Source: Chryseosolibacter indicum
Lineage (GTDB): Bacteria > Bacteroidota > Bacteroidia > Cytophagales > Cyclobacteriaceae
Direction: 5' to 3'
Assembly (NCBI RefSeq): GCF_018598585.1
Contig: NZ_JAHESD010000033.1
Location: 1 to 57,998, forward strand
DNA length: 57,998 bases
The notes under the pieces: generated by a model
The model's database searches: none
Seen by the model: the letters and a program-made list of their open reading frames with translations, nothing else
What the model was told of the DNA's origin: nothing
Shown here: positions 18,823 to 29,213 of the stretch, one piece after another
Layout of the letters: each line of letters starts with the position of its first letter
Numbering within the stretch: position 1 is the first letter of the stretch
Made by a program: the position numbers and the translations under genes

Positions 18823-18894
<72 letters not shown>

Positions 18895-21469: not shown

Positions 21470-21913
21470 ATGACAGATCTTACTAAAGAACAAATTCACT
21501 CGCTAACTAAAAGTTATCTTAATATCCTCGCCTTATTCCTGGATCAGGAGAATATTGAAAGTCGTTTTTTGAGATGCCTTCTCAAATGGGGATTTCAGCT
21601 CAAATTAAATCCTGAAGACCTGAAGAGGGGCATCGACATCTCATTATTGAAATTCTCACAACCGCAGGAAAAAATAGAACGACTTGAATCTATTTATCAC
21701 CTGGTTTACATGATCTACCTTGATAAGGTAGTCGAAGACATAGAACTTGAGGTTGCAACAGTATATGCAGAAAGACTTGGCTTTAAACCGGATGTTGTTA
21801 GCGAACTTTTTAAATCCATTGCTACTGCGGATTACGACGAACCTAAGCCACTCAAAGGCCAGGATGAAGTAATTGAATTCTTGAAGCTTTACGACCCTGA
21901 CGTAGTGGCGTAA
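21470..21913 (+). CDS. TerB-like all-helical protein of unknown function
   Basis: 147 residues, no signal peptide or membrane segment. The pattern is a bundle of amphipathic helices with HLVYMIYLDKVVEDIELEVA and VYAERLGFKPDVVSELF. This recalls the acidic helix pairs of TerB-type domains, although the typical DG.(I/V)...E core is only partly kept. The assignment is tentative. It follows the J-domain gene and precedes the his leader, which has its own promoter, so it is probably the end of a short transcript with its upstream neighbour. Confidence 0.6.
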   Translation: MTDLTKEQIHSLTKSYLNILALFLDQENIESRFLRCLLKWGFQLKLNPEDLKRGIDISLLKFSQPQEKIERLESIYHLVYMIYLDKVVEDIELEVATVYAERLGFKPDVVSELFKSIATADYDEPKPLKGQDEVIEFLKLYDPDVVA

Positions 21914-22005: not shown

Positions 22006-22035
22006 TTTCCATATTCTTAATTGCTTATATATTTG
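22006..22035 (+). promoter_or_regulatory. Predicted promoter of the histidine operon
   Basis: TATATTTG at 22028-22035 matches the TAnnTTTG -7 box exactly. TTTC at 22006-22009, 18 bases upstream, is one base off the -33 box TTTG. Transcription would start near 22042, about 30 nt before the leader peptide. Confidence 0.5.
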
Positions 22036-22072
22036 TAGTTATCAAATCAATTTAGTTATTTGGTGCACAATT

Positions 22073-22150
22073 ATGAACAGATCACTTAATATAGCACTTC
22101 ACCACCATCATCATGATATCCTCGCGATGCGTGGCAAAGTACTATTTTGA
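22073..22150 (+). CDS. hisL: Histidine operon leader peptide (five consecutive His codons)
   Basis: 25 codons, read as MNRSLNIALHHHHHDILAMR followed by GKVLF and a TGA stop. The five His codons (CAC CAC CAT CAT CAT) are at 22100-22114. Short peptides with His runs upstream of hisG are the sensing element of transcription attenuation: a ribosome short of charged tRNA-His stalls there. The His codons also fall inside the first strand of an RNA secondary structure, and the stop codon lies 23 nt before the terminator stem. It is too short for usual gene callers. The E. coli hisL analogue has seven His codons but no other similarity. Confidence 0.88.
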   Translation: MNRSLNIALHHHHHDILAMRGKVLF

Positions 22151-22205
22151 GTTTTTTATAATGAAGAATTTCAAAGGCTTGTCACACCGACAAGCCTTTT
22201 TTTTT
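22102..22205 (+). promoter_or_regulatory. Histidine operon attenuator (alternative RNA stems)
   Basis: Four strands are visible. Strand 1 is CCACCAT (22102-22108, inside the His codons) and can pair with strand 2 ATGCGTGG (22127-22134, one bulged C). Strand 2, as GTGGCAA (22131-22137), can instead pair with strand 3 TTGTCAC (22179-22185), which contains the 3' half of the terminator's 5' arm. That pairing is prolonged inwards by TTTGAG (22146-22151) with TTTCAAA (22169-22175). Strand 3 with strand 4 forms the terminator at 22173-22199. A ribosome stalled on His codons covers strand 1, frees strand 2 and favours the antiterminator. A ribosome that reaches the stop at 22148 covers strand 2 and lets the terminator form. 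Confidence 0.75.
22173..22205 (+). terminator. Attenuator terminator before hisG
   Basis: AAAGGCTTGTC and GACAAGCCTTT form a perfect 11-bp stem around ACACC, followed by a run of T to 22205. It stands 13 nt before the hisG ATG, so termination here prevents expression of the whole operon. Confidence 0.9.
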
Positions 22206-22218
22206 AATACAAATGTAA

Positions 22219-23079
22219 ATGGAAACACTACTGCGAATTGCAATTCAAAAATCTGGTAGGCTGCAAGAGGGCTCACTTGACCTTCTTAAAGAAAGTGGAT
22301 TATCCTTCAGCAATGGAAAAGAACAGCTTAAAACTCAGGCAAGAAATTTTCCAGTTGAAGTTCTCTTCCTCCGTGATGATGATATACCTCAATACGTCGA
22401 AGATAAAGTAGCTGACGTAGGTATTGTAGGTGAGAACATCCTTCTTGAAAAACAAAAGAAAAACCAACTCATCAGAAGACTCGATTTTGCTAAATGCAGA
22501 CTCTCCATTGCCATACCGCGAGCAGAAAATTATGGAGGTGTACAATCTCTACAAGGCAAGAATATTGCCACCTCCTACCCTAACATCGTCAAGAATTTTT
22601 TATCAAAGCATAATATAAATGCTGGCATCCACGAGATCAGCGGCTCCGTTGAAATAGCTCCGGGTATCGGCCTTGCAGATGCTATTTGTGACCTGGTAAG
22701 TACAGGAGGAACCCTCCTTAGCAATGGTTTAAAAGAAGTAGAAGTAGTCATGCAATCTGAGGCTGTGATTATTGCTACACCACAACTGGCTCCTGAGAAA
22801 CAACAAATACTCGACAAGCTCTTATTCCGCATTGAAGCAGTACAGAAAGCAAAAAATAACAAGTACATTCTTCTTAACTGCCCCAATGACGCCATTGACA
22901 AAATAACAAGTGTAATTCCAGGTATGAAGAGCCCCACCATTATTCCATTAGCAAGACCAGGTTGGAGTTCGCTACATTCCGTTGTAGATGAGAACGATTT
23001 CTGGGAGAAGATAGACCAGCTTAGAGGCTTTGGTGCAGAGGGAATTCTTGTAGTGCCAATAGAAAAAATGATTGTTTAA
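22219..23079 (+). CDS. hisG: ATP phosphoribosyltransferase, long form
   Basis: 286 residues. It catalyses the first step of histidine synthesis, joining ATP and PRPP. LLRIAIQKSGRLQEGSLDLL at the N-terminus and the PRPP-binding segment EIAPGIGLADAICDLVSTGG are clear. The length and the C-terminal segment (about 210-286, ending GILVVPIEKMI) show the long form with its own ACT-like regulatory domain, so no HisZ partner is needed and feedback inhibition by histidine is expected. It is the first structural gene of the operon, 13 nt after the attenuator. Confidence 0.95.
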   Translation: METLLRIAIQKSGRLQEGSLDLLKESGLSFSNGKEQLKTQARNFPVEVLFLRDDDIPQYVEDKVADVGIVGENILLEKQKKNQLIRRLDFAKCRLSIAIPRAENYGGVQSLQGKNIATSYPNIVKNFLSKHNINAGIHEISGSVEIAPGIGLADAICDLVSTGGTLLSNGLKEVEVVMQSEAVIIATPQLAPEKQQILDKLLFRIEAVQKAKNNKYILLNCPNDAIDKITSVIPGMKSPTIIPLARPGWSSLHSVVDENDFWEKIDQLRGFGAEGILVVPIEKMIV

Positions 23080-23097: not shown

Positions 23098-24381
23098 ATG
23101 AAAATATTTAATAATCCATCAAGAGAAAGCTGGAACGAAATAGTAAAAAGGCCGCAACTCGCATTAGACTTTCTGGATAGTGGTGTCCGCAATATTATCA
23201 ATCGTGTTAAAGTTTCAGGAGATCGTGCACTGCGTGAATTAACATTGCAATTTGATAAGGCAGAAATCAAATCAATTGAAGTTGATGCTTCAGAACTTAA
23301 TAACGCTACCCGGTCACTACCCGCAGCTTTAAAACAAGCAATAGAAGTTGCTGCAGATAACATCAGAAAATTCCACGCAACCCAAAAGCGTCAGGATGTA
23401 CAAGTCGAAACCATGCCTGGTGTAGTGTGCTGGCGAAAGGCTGTACCTATTAACAGAATTGGTATCTATATTCCAGGTGGCTCTGCTCCCCTGTTCTCTA
23501 CTGTATTAATGCTGGGAATACCAGCAAAACTTGCAGGCTGCTCTGAAATTATACTTTGCACGCCTCCTGACAAAGAAGGGAATATTAACCCTGCAATACT
23601 CTTTGCAGCGCAACTGGTTGGCGTAACAAAAATATTCCGCGTTGGAGGAGCCCAGGCAATTGCGGCAATGGCTTATGGAACAGAAAGCATACCGAATGTT
23701 TATAAAATCTTTGGCCCTGGCAATCAGTATGTGACAAAAGCGAAACAACTCGTAACAGAAGACGGACTTGCCATCGATATGCCTGCAGGACCATCAGAAG
23801 TTTTAGTTTTTGCAGATGAAACAGCAAACCCTAGCTTTATTGCTGCAGATCTGTTATCACAGGCAGAACACGGAGAAGATAGCCAGGTTGTATTGGTACT
23901 GAGCAATGAAATAATCCTGAGTGCGATACAGAAAGAAATTGACAAACAACTCAACGATTTACCCCGAAAAGCAATAGCAGAAAAATCATTATTCAATAGC
24001 AGGGTTGCTATTTTTAACGACAGCACCTCTGCAATTGAATTTATCAATGCGTATGCTCCTGAGCACCTCATTGTAATGGTGAAAGACGCTGACAGTATAA
24101 TTGACAAAGTTATCAATGCAGGTTCTGTTTTTATCGGTAACTATTCACCAGAAGCTGTGGGCGATTATGCCTCTGGTACAAACCACACCTTGCCCACCAA
24201 TGGATTTGCCAAGGCTTATGCAGGTGTATCTCTTGATAGCTTCTTAAAGTATATTACATACCAAAAGATCTCAGAAGAAGGAATTAAGAATATCGGACCA
24301 ATTGTAGAACAAATGGCAGAAGCTGAAGAACTTTTAGGTCATAAGAAAGCCATAACTGTAAGACTTCAAACCCTAAACTAA
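23098..24381 (+). CDS. hisD: Histidinol dehydrogenase
   Basis: 427 residues, the usual length. It carries out the last two oxidations, L-histidinol to L-histidine, using NAD and zinc. Diagnostic segments are YIPGGSAPLFSTVLMLGIPA, KIFGPGNQYVTKAKQLV, MPAGPSEVLVFAD, QAEHGEDSQVVLVL and VGDYASGTNHTLPTNGFAK, which carry the zinc- and substrate-binding Gln/His residues. It starts 18 nt after hisG and is followed by hisC after 6 nt. Confidence 0.96.
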   Translation: MKIFNNPSRESWNEIVKRPQLALDFLDSGVRNIINRVKVSGDRALRELTLQFDKAEIKSIEVDASELNNATRSLPAALKQAIEVAADNIRKFHATQKRQDVQVETMPGVVCWRKAVPINRIGIYIPGGSAPLFSTVLMLGIPAKLAGCSEIILCTPPDKEGNINPAILFAAQLVGVTKIFRVGGAQAIAAMAYGTESIPNVYKIFGPGNQYVTKAKQLVTEDGLAIDMPAGPSEVLVFADETANPSFIAADLLSQAEHGEDSQVVLVLSNEIILSAIQKEIDKQLNDLPRKAIAEKSLFNSRVAIFNDSTSAIEFINAYAPEHLIVMVKDADSIIDKVINAGSVFIGNYSPEAVGDYASGTNHTLPTNGFAKAYAGVSLDSFLKYITYQKISEEGIKNIGPIVEQMAEAEELLGHKKAITVRLQTLN

Positions 24382-24387
24382 AACAAG

Positions 24388-25434
24388 ATGAAAGGAAAAT
24401 CATTTATAGATATCCGCACATTGGTCCGGAAAAACATTCTAACCATGAAGCCATACTCATCAGCTAGAGATGAGTTTAAAGGAGAAGCTGAAGTCTTTCT
24501 TGACGCAAACGAAAATCCTTATCCTACACCATACAATAGATATCCTGATCCCCTTCAAAAAGAAGTAAAAGAGAAACTGGCAGCACTTAAAGGTGTAGAT
24601 GCTTCACAGATATTTTTGGGCAATGGCAGTGATGAAGCTATAGACCTCCTTATCCGTGCATTCTGTGAGCCCAACCACGATTCCATACTTATTACTGAAC
24701 CAACCTATGGGATGTACGCAGTTTGTGCCGACGTTAATGCAGTAAACATCCAACAAGTTCTGCTAACACCAGAATTTGACCTCGACCTGGATGCATTTCC
24801 CAATGCTTTTGATGCAACAACTAAAATAATTTTCCTTTGCAGCCCCAACAATCCTACAGGTAACTTATTAAGCAGAGATAAGATCATTGAAGTGTTAAAT
24901 CGCTTCTATGGCCTTGTGGTTATTGATGAAGCTTACATCGATTTTTCGAACAGCAGAAGCTTTGTACAGGAATTGAAGAAGTATCCTAATCTTGTTGTAC
25001 TTCAAACCTTTTCCAAAGCATGGGGGCTTGCAGGACTTCGTCTGGGTATGTGTTTCGCATCCGAAGAGATAATTTCAATTCTCAATAAGATAAAGTACCC
25101 TTACAACGTCAACATCCGAACACAGGAGCTTTCGCTGGAGGCGTTGGAAAATGCATACAAAAAAGACATTTGGGTAGATGAAATATTAAACCAGCGCGAT
25201 AAGCTCATCAAAGCTTTAAAAGGTCTAAAAATTGTGGATAAAGTATACCCTACCGATTCCAATTTTATTCTTGTCAGGGTTCAGGATGCCAATGCTACAT
25301 ACCGTTACTTAACGGATAACAAAATAATCGTAAGGGATAGATCCCGTGTTTCCTTATGTTATAACTGTCTGCGTATCACCGTAGGAACACCTGAAGAAAA
25401 TGAAACATTGATCAAAGCACTAAAACAATTATGA
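24388..25434 (+). CDS. hisC: Histidinol-phosphate aminotransferase
   Basis: 348 residues, fold-type I PLP enzyme that converts imidazole-acetol phosphate to histidinol phosphate. [17 protein letters not shown] is the substrate-binding N-terminus, CSPNNPTGN and [10 protein letters not shown] hold PLP contacts, [14 protein letters not shown] carries the Schiff-base Lys210, and [20 protein letters not shown] is the C-terminal Arg motif. Its stop overlaps the start of hisB by 4 nt (ATGA), consistent with translational coupling. Confidence 0.95.
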
Positions 25435-26546
25435 AGAAGGTACTTTTTATTGATAGAGATGGAACGCTAATAACTGAGCCACCTGATCAGCAAATCGACA
25501 GCCTGGAAAAATTAGAGTTCTACCCGGGTGTATTTTCTTCACTTTCGCGTATTGCTAAAGATTTAGATTATGAGTTGGTTATGGTCACAAATCAGGATGG
25601 ACTAGGAACAGATAGTTTCCCCGAGAATACCTTCTGGCCAGCGCACGAAAAAATGATTAAAGCGTTTGAAAACGAAGGTATCATCTTTAGCAAAACATTC
25701 ATAGACCGATCTTTTCCTCACGAAATGAAGTCAACCCGGAAGCCAGGAACAGGAATGCTTACCGAATTCTTTTCAAAGGAATACGATCTCAAAAATTCAT
25801 ATGTCATTGGCGATAGAGCTACCGATGTTGAGCTCGCAAAGAACCTGGGTGCAAAGGCTATCTTAATTAACAATGGAAGCTTGTCAGAAAAAATTATTGA
25901 GCTACAACTCGAGGATTATTGCTCACTAACAACAACGTCATGGAATGAGATTTACAAGCTCCTGAGTAAGCCTCAACGAAGTGCTTCTGTAGCAAGAACT
26001 ACCAAGGAAACGGATATTAACATAGAAGTTAACCTTGATGGAAATGGAAAATCTTCCATTAATACCGGGTTAGGTTTTTTTGATCATATGCTTGATCAGT
26101 TGGCAAGGCACGGAAATCTTGATCTTGTTGTTAACGTAAAAGGAGATTTGCACATTGATGAACATCATACTATTGAAGATACTGCCCTCGCCCTTGGTGA
26201 CGCATTTATAAAAGCATTGGTTGACAAAAAAGGAATAGAACGTTATGGCTTCTGCCTTCCTATGGATGATTGCCTCGCACGAGTAGCTATAGATTTTGGA
26301 GGAAGGCCATGGCTCGTCTGGGAAGCCGAATTTAAACGCGAGAAGATTGGTGAAATGCCCACTGAAATGTTCTATCATTTTTTTAAGTCCTTCTCTGATA
26401 CAGCAAAATGTAACCTCAATATTAAAGCGGAAGGAAATAATGAACATCATAAAATCGAAGCTATTTTTAAGGCCTTCGCGAAATCAATCAAAATGGCAGT
26501 AAAGAAAGAAGGGAATCAATTGCCATCAACCAAAGGAATTCTATGA
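25431..26546 (+). CDS. hisB: Bifunctional histidinol-phosphatase / imidazoleglycerol-phosphate dehydratase
   Basis: 371 residues, two domains. The HAD-type phosphatase (about 1-165) starts [12 protein letters not shown] with nucleophile Asp8 and Asp10 and keeps [17 protein letters not shown]. The dehydratase (about 185-371) has [31 protein letters not shown] and [15 protein letters not shown], the His clusters that bind its metals. The Cys-rich zinc loop of the E. coli phosphatase is replaced by [15 protein letters not shown], which has no Cys. I recall this as usual in Bacteroidota. The fusion covers steps 6 and 8 of the pathway. It overlaps hisC and hisH by 4 nt each. Confidence 0.95.
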
Positions 26547-27130
26547 ACCTCGTATTAATAAAATATAATGCAGGAAATATTCAATCGGTAAGCTTCGCCC
26601 TTGAACGCTTAGGCATAAGCTTCAATATAACTGATGATGCAGAGCAAATCCGCAAAGCAGATAAAGTAATTTTTCCTGGCGTAGGTGAAGCAAGTACTAC
26701 AATGACTTTTCTAAAAGAAAAGAAATTAGACCAACTGATAAAATCATTAACGCAGCCCGTACTTGGTGTTTGCTTAGGCATGCAGTTGATGTGCCGGTTC
26801 TCGGAAGAAAATAACACACCCTGCCTGGGTATATTTGATGAAGACGTGAAGCGGTTTATTCCTGAAAGCACCATGAAGGTTCCGCACATGGGTTGGAATA
26901 AATTGCTCTTGAGGGAAGACTCCTGGCTCAACCCTGAGCTATCAGACCAATACGTATATTTTGTTCACAGTTTTTATGTTCCGGTCAACCGATACACATC
27001 GGCTCTAACAGACTACATCAATCCCTTTAGTGCAGCTTTAAAAAAAGATAATTTTTATGGAGTCCAATTTCATCCGGAAAAGTCAGCTTCAACTGGTGAA
27101 CTGGTTTTAAAAAGCTTCTTAGATTTATGA
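26543..27130 (+). CDS. hisH: Imidazole glycerol phosphate synthase, glutaminase subunit
   Basis: 195 residues, class I glutamine amidotransferase. The oxyanion-strand motif is FPGVGEA, the nucleophile elbow is GVCLGMQLM with Cys77, and the His-Glu pair is in [10 protein letters not shown] near residue 175. It supplies ammonia to HisF. The first residues [16 protein letters not shown] are typical of HisH. It overlaps both hisB (4 nt) and hisA (4 nt). Confidence 0.95.
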
Positions 27131-27840
27131 GAATAATACCCGCTATAGATATTATTGATGGCAAATGCGTTCGCCTTACACAAGGAGATTATCAGCAAAA
27201 AAAGATTTACAACGAAAACCCCGTTGAAGTAGCCCAAAGCTTCGAGCAGGCCGGACTAAAATATCTTCACCTTGTAGACCTCGATGGAGCCAGGGCAGGA
27301 AGAGTAACTAACTGGAAAGTAGTTGAAGAAATTTCATCAAAAACAAAGTTGATTATCGATTTTGGTGGTGGTATAAAAACTGATGAGGAGGTAAAAAATT
27401 TGTTCGATCTTGGCGTAGCGCAGGTAAACCTCGGAAGCATTGCCGTAAAAGAACCTGACAAAGTAATATCATGGAGTAAGAAATATGGGGCAGAAAAATT
27501 GATCCTAGGTGCTGATGTTAAAGATGAAATTATTGCAATACATGGATGGCAGGAAAAATCACAACTAACAATTGATGACTTCATAAGCAACTTTCAAAAA
27601 CATCAACTCAATCATATTACATGTACCGACATTAGTACCGATGGTACTTTAAAAGGACCAAACATCGGCTTATATCAGCATCTCATAACCAACTATAGCA
27701 GCATAAAACTTATTGCAAGTGGTGGAGTTGGATCCTTTGAGGATCTTCAAACACTACAATCAATCGGTGTCTTCGGGGTCATTATTGGCAAAGCAATCTA
27801 CGAAGGCAAATTAAACCTTAAACAACTTGTAACTCTTTAG
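27127..27840 (+). CDS. hisA: ProFAR isomerase
   Basis: 237 residues, a TIM barrel that isomerises the ribosyl moiety of ProFAR. The catalytic Asp8 is in [19 protein letters not shown], the two phosphate-binding loops are [13 protein letters not shown] and [13 protein letters not shown], and the second acid lies in [14 protein letters not shown]. The HisA-specific VRLTQGDY separates it from HisF. It ends 2 nt before hisF. Confidence 0.95.
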
Positions 27841-27842
27841 GA

Positions 27843-28598
27843 ATGCTTACAAAGAGAATAATACCTTGTCTTGATATTAAGGACGGACGCACAGTAAAAG
27901 GGATTAATTTTTTAAACATAAGAGACGCGGGCGATCCGGTTGAGCTTGGTTCTTTATATGCACAACACGGTGCTGATGAATTAGTATTTCTCGATATATC
28001 GGCCACCAACGAAAAAAGAAAAACTTTCGCTTCCCTTGTAAAAGATATTGCGCGTCATATAAATATACCCTTTACAGTAGGCGGTGGTATAAGCAGCGTG
28101 CAGGATGTCGCCCCGCTGCTTGAAGCTGGCGCTGACAAGGTTAGTATTAACTCAGCTGCTGTAAGAAATCCGAAGCTTATTGATGATCTTTCCAGAGCAT
28201 TTGGTTCACAATGCATCGTTCTTGCAATAGACGCAAGAACCGTTAATGATAATTGGTTAGTACATACAAATGGAGGCAGGCAGGCAACCGATATCCGGTT
28301 GTTTCCGTGGGCAAAAGAAGGCCAGGAAAGAGGTGCAGGTGAAATACTCTTCACAAGTATGGACCATGATGGAACCAAGGCCGGCTTTGCAACTGAAGCC
28401 TTGAACGCGCTTCACAACCTTCTTAATATTCCGGTAATTGCATCTGGCGGTGCGGGTAATAAAGAACATTTTGTTGAAGCTTTTACTAAAGGGAAAGCGG
28501 ATGCAGCGCTTGCTGCCAGCATATTTCATTTCCGTGAAGTAGACATCCCGGATTTAAAATTGTTTCTTAAAAATAATGGAGTTAATGTAAGGCTATAA
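27843..28598 (+). CDS. hisF: Imidazole glycerol phosphate synthase, cyclase subunit
   Basis: 251 residues, a TIM barrel related to HisA. It closes the imidazole ring with ammonia from HisH and releases AICAR. Signatures are [18 protein letters not shown] (catalytic Asp11), [45 protein letters not shown] with the second catalytic Asp, and [13 protein letters not shown]. It is followed by hisIE after 12 nt. Confidence 0.96.
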
Positions 28599-28610: not shown

Positions 28611-29213
28611 ATGATAATTACTGATAATATAGATTTTCAGAAACTAAATGGTCTTGTTCCCTGCATTGTTCAGGACGCTAACACAAAAAATGTCCTAATG
28701 CTTGGCTTCATGAACGAAGAAGCTTTCAATAAGACAATCCGCGAAAAAAGGGTAACTTTCTATAGTCGCACTAAAAATCGCCTCTGGACTAAAGGAGAAA
28801 CTTCGGGTAATTTTCTTGAAGTACATGATATTTTAGTTGACTGCGACAGTGACTCAATACTAATTAAAGCGCACCCTATTGGTCCCGTATGTCACACAGG
28901 GGCTGATACATGCTTCAACGAATCCAACAAAGATTTTTCTCTCCTCACGTTAGAGTCAATCATTCAAGACAGAAAAAAGAATCCCAAAAAAGGTTCTTAT
29001 ACAACTTCCCTTTTTGAATCAGGAATTAATAAAATAGCACAGAAGGTTGGAGAAGAAGCAGTAGAGATAGTGATAGAAGCAAAGGATAACAATAAAGAAT
29101 TATTTCTTAATGAAAGTGCTGACCTGCTTTATCATTTCCTGGTACTACTTGTACAAAAAGGCTTCTCGCTTTCAGATGTTGTAGAAATACTTAAAAAAAG
29201 GCACAGCAAATAG
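28611..29213 (+). CDS. hisI: Bifunctional phosphoribosyl-AMP cyclohydrolase / phosphoribosyl-ATP pyrophosphatase
   Basis: 200 residues, the HisI-HisE fusion that performs steps 2 and 3. The cyclohydrolase half (about 1-110) has LMLGFMNEEAF, TFYSRTKNRLWTKGETSG, the metal-binding DCDSDS and PVCHTGADTCF. The pyrophosphatase half (about 118-200) has KKGSYTTSLFESGINKIAQK and VGEEAVEIVIEAK. It closes the operon, so all enzymes from PRPP to histidine are encoded here in the classical order. No terminator is seen after it; its stop is one base from the end of the convergent gene. Confidence 0.95.
   Translation: MIITDNIDFQKLNGLVPCIVQDANTKNVLMLGFMNEEAFNKTIREKRVTFYSRTKNRLWTKGETSGNFLEVHDILVDCDSDSILIKAHPIGPVCHTGADTCFNESNKDFSLLTLESIIQDRKKNPKKGSYTTSLFESGINKIAQKVGEEAVEIVIEAKDNNKELFLNESADLLYHFLVLLVQKGFSLSDVVEILKKRHSK

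Follow-up and report, generated by a model that had tools for sequence, protein, structure and literature searches.

Introduction

The closest described counterpart of the locus reported here is the his attenuator of E. coli and Salmonella (HisL, Rfam RF00514), in which a leader peptide with a His run, alternative hairpins and a terminator with a T run lie before hisG (PMC9413887, in its available text). The present locus has the same parts and, as proposed below, would follow the same logic; it differs in a very short predicted 5' UTR and a promoter of the Bacteroidota type. Outside the His run the leader peptide is presumably unlike HisL. For three lineages of Firmicutes, a phylum other than that of the present locus, His leaders with 3-5 consecutive His codons, a terminator and an antiterminator were predicted by comparison (PMC9413887). 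The available text of that study names Proteobacteria as the home of his attenuators, and words beginning with Bacteroid- are absent from its main text.

A leader RNA listed for the Bacteroidota is Bacteroid-trp (RF01692; PMC2864571, available text); by its name it senses Trp, unlike the His leader described here, and its model ends AAAAAAGGCUUGUC, close to AAAGGCUUGUC of the present locus. A conserved structured 5' element with no Rfam hit lies before hisG in Flavobacterium psychrophilum and other Flavobacteriaceae, that is, in the same phylum and before the same gene, and the same report gives strong clues for leader-peptide attenuation before amino-acid operons; its available text describes no his leader peptide or switch (PMC9723704). 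The available text of a transcript map of B. thetaiotaomicron mentions, in general terms, sORFs that resemble the leader peptides of attenuators (PMC7366714), and that of a 2021 study of the his genes of the superphylum refers to attenuation once, for Salmonella and E. coli, and lacks words beginning with leader- (PMC8305728). No his leader peptide of Bacteroidota was found described in the available parts of the open literature; a 2010 survey by Lopatovskaya et al. may cover the phylum.

The analysis concerns a stretch of 57,998 nucleotides from Chryseosolibacter indicum (contig NZ_JAHESD010000033.1), hereafter the window, for which an original prediction had proposed a complete histidine attenuator upstream of hisG. 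The results indicate that the region is very probably a ribosome-controlled transcription attenuator of the his operon, with a mechanism that we infer, and most likely one of a known kind, ribosome-mediated attenuation, in a lineage that lacks an Rfam model.

Results

A His-rich leader precedes a complete his operon

The features of the locus are collected in Table 1. The predicted ORF of 25 codons, five of them consecutive His codons, was borne out by translation of positions 22073-22150. Runs of at least four His codons, counted on both strands and in all frames of the window, comprise one of five, located in the leader ORF, and three of four. The sensor codons specify the amino acid that is the product of the operon itself, a His run standing before his genes, and Pfam matches revealed a complete operon with the genes in the order hisG, hisD, hisC, hisB, hisH, hisA, hisF and hisIE. 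The hisG of the window is nearest to those of Chryseolinea, Pseudochryseolinea and Ohtaekwangia, with 86-88% identity in named loci.

Table 1. Features of the his leader and operon in window coordinates
Feature	Position	Strand	Remarks
-33 TTTG box of the likely promoter	22032..22035	+	two-box pattern in relatives
-7-like box GTTATTTG	22055..22062 (TTTG 22059-22062)	+	two mismatches to TAnnTTTG; 10 nt before leader ATG
Leader peptide ORF MNRSLNIALHHHHHDILAMRGKVLF	22073..22150 (stop 22148-22150)	+	25 codons; related leaders in relatives
Strand A, 5' side of the first pairing (proposed ribosome-free state)	22091..22116	+	
Sensor, five consecutive His codons	22100..22114	+	CAC CAC CAT CAT CAT
Strand B, 3' side of A:B and 5' side of the antiterminator	22131..22151	+	core GTGGCAA, 22131-22137
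Strand C, 3' side of the antiterminator, overlapping the terminator 5' arm	22170..22185	+	core TTGTCAC, 22179-22185
Terminator hairpin	22173..22199 (22173-22183 with 22189-22199)	+	11/11 standard pairs, 5-nt loop
T run of the intrinsic terminator	22197..22205	+	nine T
hisG	22219..23079	+	Pfam HisG and HisG_C
hisD	23098..24381	+	Pfam Histidinol_dh
hisC, aminotransferase	24388..25434	+	Pfam class and position
hisB	25431..26546	+	Pfam HAD phosphatase and IGPD (dehydratase)
hisH, class I glutamine amidotransferase	26543..27130	+	Pfam class and position
hisA	27127..27840	+	Pfam His_biosynth and position
hisF	27843..28598	+	Pfam His_biosynth and position
hisIE	28611..29213	+	Pfam PRA-CH and PRA-PH

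The hairpin before hisG sits between that gene and an upstream gene (21470-21913) on the same strand, an arrangement that would also suit an ordinary terminator of the upstream gene, or a leftover of one, with the His run present by chance. In 80 loci, searched over up to 3 kb upstream of the his operon and over a shorter distance in 13 of them, no homologue of the upstream gene was found, and therefore leader and terminator travel with hisG and not with that gene. Chance is also contradicted by the frequency of such ORFs. A strict rule (an ORF with ATG start, 8-45 codons long, in which seven codons include three or more for His, within the last 260 nt before hisG) found a His-rich leader in 229 of 259 distinct upstream regions and gave 0 of 259 for the reverse strand and 1.1% for shuffles; some genomes occur twice among the region collections. 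An upstream-gene terminator with a fortuitous His run is accordingly very improbable, and the hairpin is treated below as part of the leader.

Searches with Rfam at gathering score returned no match in the window save a distant tRNA, and one tRNA only in 20 related loci; a tRNA gene lies at 18823-18894 of the window on the minus strand. The His_leader model RF00514 did not match the window at gathering score or at E≤10; the description of the locus as a complete attenuator stands as regards its parts and not as regards membership of the enterobacterial family. Bacteroid-trp was rejected as a home for the leader, with 22.5 bits at the window site against a cut-off of 49, and this model matched in 0 of 60 genomes of the family at E≤0.001 under stricter filters. 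A further model, R1, was discarded as a means of finding attenuators elsewhere in the genome, since the his site alone scored strongly (E 5e-19) and the next of ten matches had an E of 0.012.

The terminator and two competing pairings

A perfect 11-bp terminator with a T run 13 nt before hisG had been predicted, and all 11 pairs and the nine T were found, with 13 nt between the end of the T run (22205) and the hisG ATG at 22219. The hairpin has an energy of -15.6 kcal/mol, and the leader from 22060 to 22212 folds to -40.8 kcal/mol compared with a shuffled mean of -22.7 (z -5.2). The hairpin pattern GGCTTGYC-N3-10-GRCAAGCC occurs once in the 5.8-Mb genome, and the view that the conserved GGCTTGYC arm is a general terminator sequence was therefore rejected.

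Folding returned both of the pairings expected to compete with the terminator. The A:B pairing is a broken stem spanning 22091-22145 with an energy of -15.5 kcal/mol including inner helices; the pairing of the His-codon strand proposed for 22102-22108 with 22127-22134 was recovered, at the different coordinates 22102-22105 with 22131-22134. The B:C pairing joins 22131-22137 with 22179-22185, exactly as proposed, plus 22139-22140 with 22177-22178 and 22145-22151 with 22170-22176, for a total of -14.2 kcal/mol, the last being the helper helix that had been placed at 22146-22151 with 22169-22175 and is shifted slightly. Taken alone, the window leader has a B:C pairing with p 0.155 against dinucleotide shuffles and p 0.015 against synonymous versions.

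When the RNA was folded from the point after a His-stalled ribosome to the point before the terminator 3' arm, B:C was the best fold in all six end combinations; for a ribosome standing at the stop codon, with the RNA starting beyond it, the terminator was the remaining structure. When the 5' part was removed from the complete RNA, the terminator and not the antiterminator was the minimum with each of three start edges. Folding with part of the leader blocked, the check suggested originally, thus reproduces the switch as long as the terminator 3' arm is unmade and fails to do so once the whole RNA is present. Since the terminator wins at equilibrium in the complete RNA, the switch would depend on timing, with B:C forming first.

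Modelled positions of the ribosome

A ribosome covering 13 nt from the first base of the A site was placed at every codon of 47 leaders, and the free RNA was folded up to just past the terminator loop. In this model the antiterminator formed in 251 of 251 positions with the ribosome on the His run, in 132 of 141 with the ribosome 1-3 codons past it, in 40 of 259 with the ribosome in the middle of the tail, and in 0 of 141 with the ribosome at the last two codons or the stop. The predicted spacing, in which a ribosome stalled on the His codons frees strand B and one at the stop codon covers it, is reproduced by the first and last of these counts.

The register also bears on the suggestion that a protein or small molecule operates the switch in place of the ribosome. 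Non-ribosomal control of his genes is known elsewhere (T-box and HisR, in the available text of PMC9413887) and nothing specific to the locus points to it; no Rfam family covers the region at gathering score, and the His codons lie at the register that would free strand B, which together make control of this kind highly unlikely in comparison with sensing by a translating ribosome.

Of 229 ribosome positions that precede the His run by more than two codons, 215 gave the antiterminator and 13 gave A:B, indicating that the ribosome-free state is not explained by energy alone; as modelled, A:B as the state without a ribosome appears to be the weakest arm of the explanation. These counts suit a variant of attenuation, not exclusive of the rest, with two states, in which A:B is irrelevant and readthrough is the default without a ribosome. 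Against it stand an A:B pairing that averages -16.3 in the 47 leaders versus -9.2 in their synonymous versions, the better score of the own than of the swapped A:B partner in 36 of 47, and the leader of the window itself, which formed A:B at the first three ribosome positions tried. In addition, A:B is made before strand C and for this reason may be kinetically favoured. The two-state variant is possible but less likely than not.

The putative promoter

The original prediction began the region at 22028, where TATATTTG resembles a -7 box. This sequence was rejected as the -7 box: TAnnTTTG occurs within 120 nt of the leader ATG in 2 of 47 leaders, the window included, against 8 of 47 in the reverse control, and by eye the relatives have the -33 TTTG box at the place of 22028. 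Two TTTG boxes, for which the consensus was taken from the available text of PMC7366714, are better placed in the relatives, and the sequence at 22028 is probably not the -7 box of the promoter. The pattern TTTG-N21-25-TTTG/TTCG ending 7-15 nt before the leader ATG was found in 35 of 47 leaders including that of the window and in 1 of 47 on the reverse strand, and a TAnnTTTG-like box was absent within 60 nt of the ATG in 43 of these near leaders. From these patterns the likely promoter is the TTTG/TTTG pair ending 10 nt before the leader ATG, which would make the 5' UTR very short.

A two-box rule requiring the second box to end no more than 20 nt before the leader ATG was applied to the other leaders described below. 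It found the pair in 7 of the 29 leader-bearing regions among L047-L081, in 23 of 55 in the class sample and in 30 of 50 of the second form, with 0, 1 and 0, respectively, on the reverse strand. In the class sample a TAnnTTTG-like box ended within 12 nt of the ATG in 19 of 55 leaders and at 13-25 nt in another 19, the reverse strand giving 1 and 5.

Conservation in near relatives

The 47 leaders, from the Chryseolinea/Ohtaekwangia clade and its neighbours, were hand-picked from 79 regions with leader and terminator. All 47 leaders have a B:C pairing that exceeds in strength the mean of their 200 dinucleotide shuffles (p≤0.05 in 35 rows taken singly); it reached p≤0.05 against 200 synonymous-codon versions in 33, and the own B:C partner was better than the mean swapped partner in 37. 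The A:B pairing reached p≤0.05 against synonymous-codon versions in 31 of the 47. Within the His cluster, CAC is used at the first, second and third codons in 30, 32 and 25 leaders, respectively, and CAT at the fourth in 42 of 47 and at the fifth in 32 of 35; the his genes of the window contain 18 CAC and 21 CAT. To judge from these counts, the choice of His codon in the leaders is dependent on position in the cluster.

Covariation was examined in an alignment (A1) that is out of register for some rows (L019, L033), with controls that leave some relatedness. The terminator has 99.0% of cells paired and double changes in 7 of 11 pairs, a result reached in 0 of 500 shuffles. The antiterminator has 82.5% of cells paired versus 27-56% when slid; its 8 double-change cells were equalled in 0 of 500 shuffles, while slides of +2 and +3 gave 8 and 13. 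Double changes occur in 3 of its pairs, a number that 75 of 500 shuffles reached as well. For the A:B stem 71.4% of cells are paired versus 28-46% when slid, and 9 pairs show double changes, a count also reached by 283 of 500 shuffles. RNAalifold on the alignment returned the terminator only and not the other stems. The comparison of relatives that had been proposed therefore showed the His run, the terminator and the antiterminator strand to recur, with compensatory changes that appear clear in the terminator and modest in the antiterminator and A:B.

The residues outside the His run also recur within the clade (MRG.. tails), as might be expected of a small working His-rich protein, for example a metal-binding one, that happens to lie before hisG. 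The tail coincides with strand B, and tails vary together with the terminator arm with which they pair; codon choice exceeds the synonymous expectation, and none of 7 leader peptides matched NCBIfam families. A working protein is for these reasons very unlikely, and the ORF is best read as a leader.

Among the near relatives, the candidate leader of L021 has two His codons, and the frame of L022 stops soon past the His run. The distance from the terminator stem to hisG is 176 nt in L042 and 16 to 100 nt in the other 46.

Distribution across the class

A class-wide draw of 158 genomes gave a HisG match in 69 and none in 89, and the class sample consisted of 60 of the 64 HisG-matching genomes outside the family of the window. 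Under a looser rule (450 nt; ATG, GTG or TTG starts), which has a reverse-strand rate of 11/259, a His-rich leader was present in 55 of the 60 regions upstream of hisG, with no His-rich ORF in the other 5; a terminator with a T run was present in 37 of 60, and 18 of the 55 leader-bearing regions lacked one by the rule used. Outside the near clade, 59 leaders of the terminator type had an own B:C pairing that beat swapped partners in 52 (Wilcoxon p 5e-8) and the shuffled mean in 55, with p≤0.05 in 35. B:C was weaker than -10 kcal/mol in ten rows (L052, L054, L059, L065, L069, L198, L206, L209, L223 and L225). The strands differ between clades and yet match, as in CGGTGGGCTG with AGGCTTGCCG and in QA-type tails, CTCAGGCG, with arms CGTTTGAG; the tail of the leader peptide therefore seems to follow the RNA.

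A second form without a terminator

HisG was found in 138 genomes of the family, of which 130 upstream regions were examined and 8 left out. A His leader was present in 121 of the 130 by the looser rule, with a terminator in 35 and none in 86. In 77 of the 86 terminator-less leaders the last His codon lies within 4 codons of the stop, and in 9 it does not. Compared with shuffles, the 28 nt around the stop codon have the better fold (p≤0.05) in 48 of these 77, in 0 of the 9 and in 0 of the 35 leaders with a terminator. A common end of this second form is VHHFHHSS-stop within TTCCTC-stop-GAGGAA; other stop hairpins are TCTCTC/GAGAGA, TTGCT/AGCAA and TGCCT/AGGC. A motif resembling CATATCGCC follows 3' of the second-form his leader in 32 of 49 by the pattern used here. 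The terminator-less leaders with His codons abutting the stop make up part of rows L111-L170 and L232-L271; L108 has seven consecutive His codons near the stop, with neither a terminator nor a stop hairpin by the rules used.

A model (R2) built from 33 second-form leaders gave matches in 15 of 41 genomes, 14 of them just upstream of hisG and one weak match elsewhere, with none in the genome of the window. Covariation of the stop-codon hairpin in the motif-bearing his set was not significant (62 of 500 shuffles as high) because the stem hardly varies there; the candidate hairpin is instead supported by the shuffles and by the different stems in other leaders. A search of the second form for an intrinsic terminator or one clear alternative pairing found neither.

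The genome of the window has, outside the window, a leader of this second type before thrA (L290, the same place as L285), which ends ISTITTIITG-stop within TACGGGG-TAA-CCCGTA, followed by CATATCATCCC, and lacks a terminator. The gene was named thrA, aspartokinase, from an AA_kinase match in an 815-codon frame. Among the best 30 thrA loci of 68 genomes with a match, a sample biased to close relatives since it holds best matches only, 25 have a leader whose end is rich in Thr and Ile, and a stop-codon hairpin is present in 23 of the 25; under a stricter rule the count was 15 of the best 30, with 0 of 30 on the reverse strand, and the motif was found in 11 of the 15. In L316, also upstream of thrA, ACGGGGAGTTCCCGT and CATATTGCCC are present and no leader ORF ends there by the rule used; perhaps this is a decayed or differently framed leader.

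The same genome also has a leader of the terminator type, MNQYTNIAWWWHKSLNDRCIAML, before trpE (L280), a gene named from a chorismate-binding match. It has a GC-rich terminator-like hairpin together with A:B- and antiterminator-like pairings, as in his.

Discussion

Sequence and comparison establish which parts the his leader has, that these exclude one another, that they are in register with the His codons and that they are conserved. In the proposed mechanism, RNA polymerase would start a few nucleotides upstream of the leader ATG, and the 25-codon leader would be translated by a ribosome following the polymerase. Under a shortage of charged tRNA-His, this ribosome would wait on the His codons and cover strand A, leaving B free to pair with C as C is made, so that the terminator would be forestalled and the operon read. 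When tRNA-His is plentiful, the ribosome would reach the stop codon and cover B, C would pair with its 3' arm in the terminator, and transcription would end in the T run before hisG. For this mechanism we infer close coupling of transcription and translation, timely formation of the antiterminator, efficient termination, the start site of transcription and tRNA-His as the signal.

In the second form the regulated codons would stand directly before the stop, with the stop in a hairpin loop followed by a [CT]ATAT-N-CCC element. A stalled ribosome would hold the stop-codon hairpin open, and a terminating ribosome would let it close or would expose the RNA beyond it, perhaps to Rho. The cys leaders of Mycobacterium are comparable in having regulated codons near the stop and no intrinsic terminator, with Rho suggested as the factor; according to the available text they have no conserved possible terminator hairpin, whereas the second form has a stop-codon hairpin and a CATAT-CCC motif (PMC1262725). 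By this analogy, the favoured explanation is that a stalled ribosome masks the stop region and that Rho terminates transcription. The wider proposal, that nearly leaderless attenuators including that of the window extend across the class and have in much of the family been replaced by a terminator-less type with a stop-codon hairpin, common to thr operons and forming a new architecture for two amino acids with one motif, seems to us evenly balanced between right and wrong.

Bacteroidota usually start translation without Shine-Dalgarno pairing. To judge from their promoter boxes, many of the leaders seem to start close to the 5' end of the transcript, where a ribosome would load early. The 5' UTRs of B. 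thetaiotaomicron have a median length of 32 nt, and only about 3.7% of them are below 10 nt, in the available text of PMC7366714. Since attenuation needs a ribosome close behind the polymerase, an attenuator conserved across Bacteroidota would be evidence for coupled transcription and translation in this phylum. That part of one family lacks the terminator, having lost it, and carries its His codons next to the stop would provide a natural experiment on the conversion of one attenuator type into another and, if the proposal is true, the stop-codon-hairpin type would be a new architecture of attenuation that serves two amino acids with a common motif.
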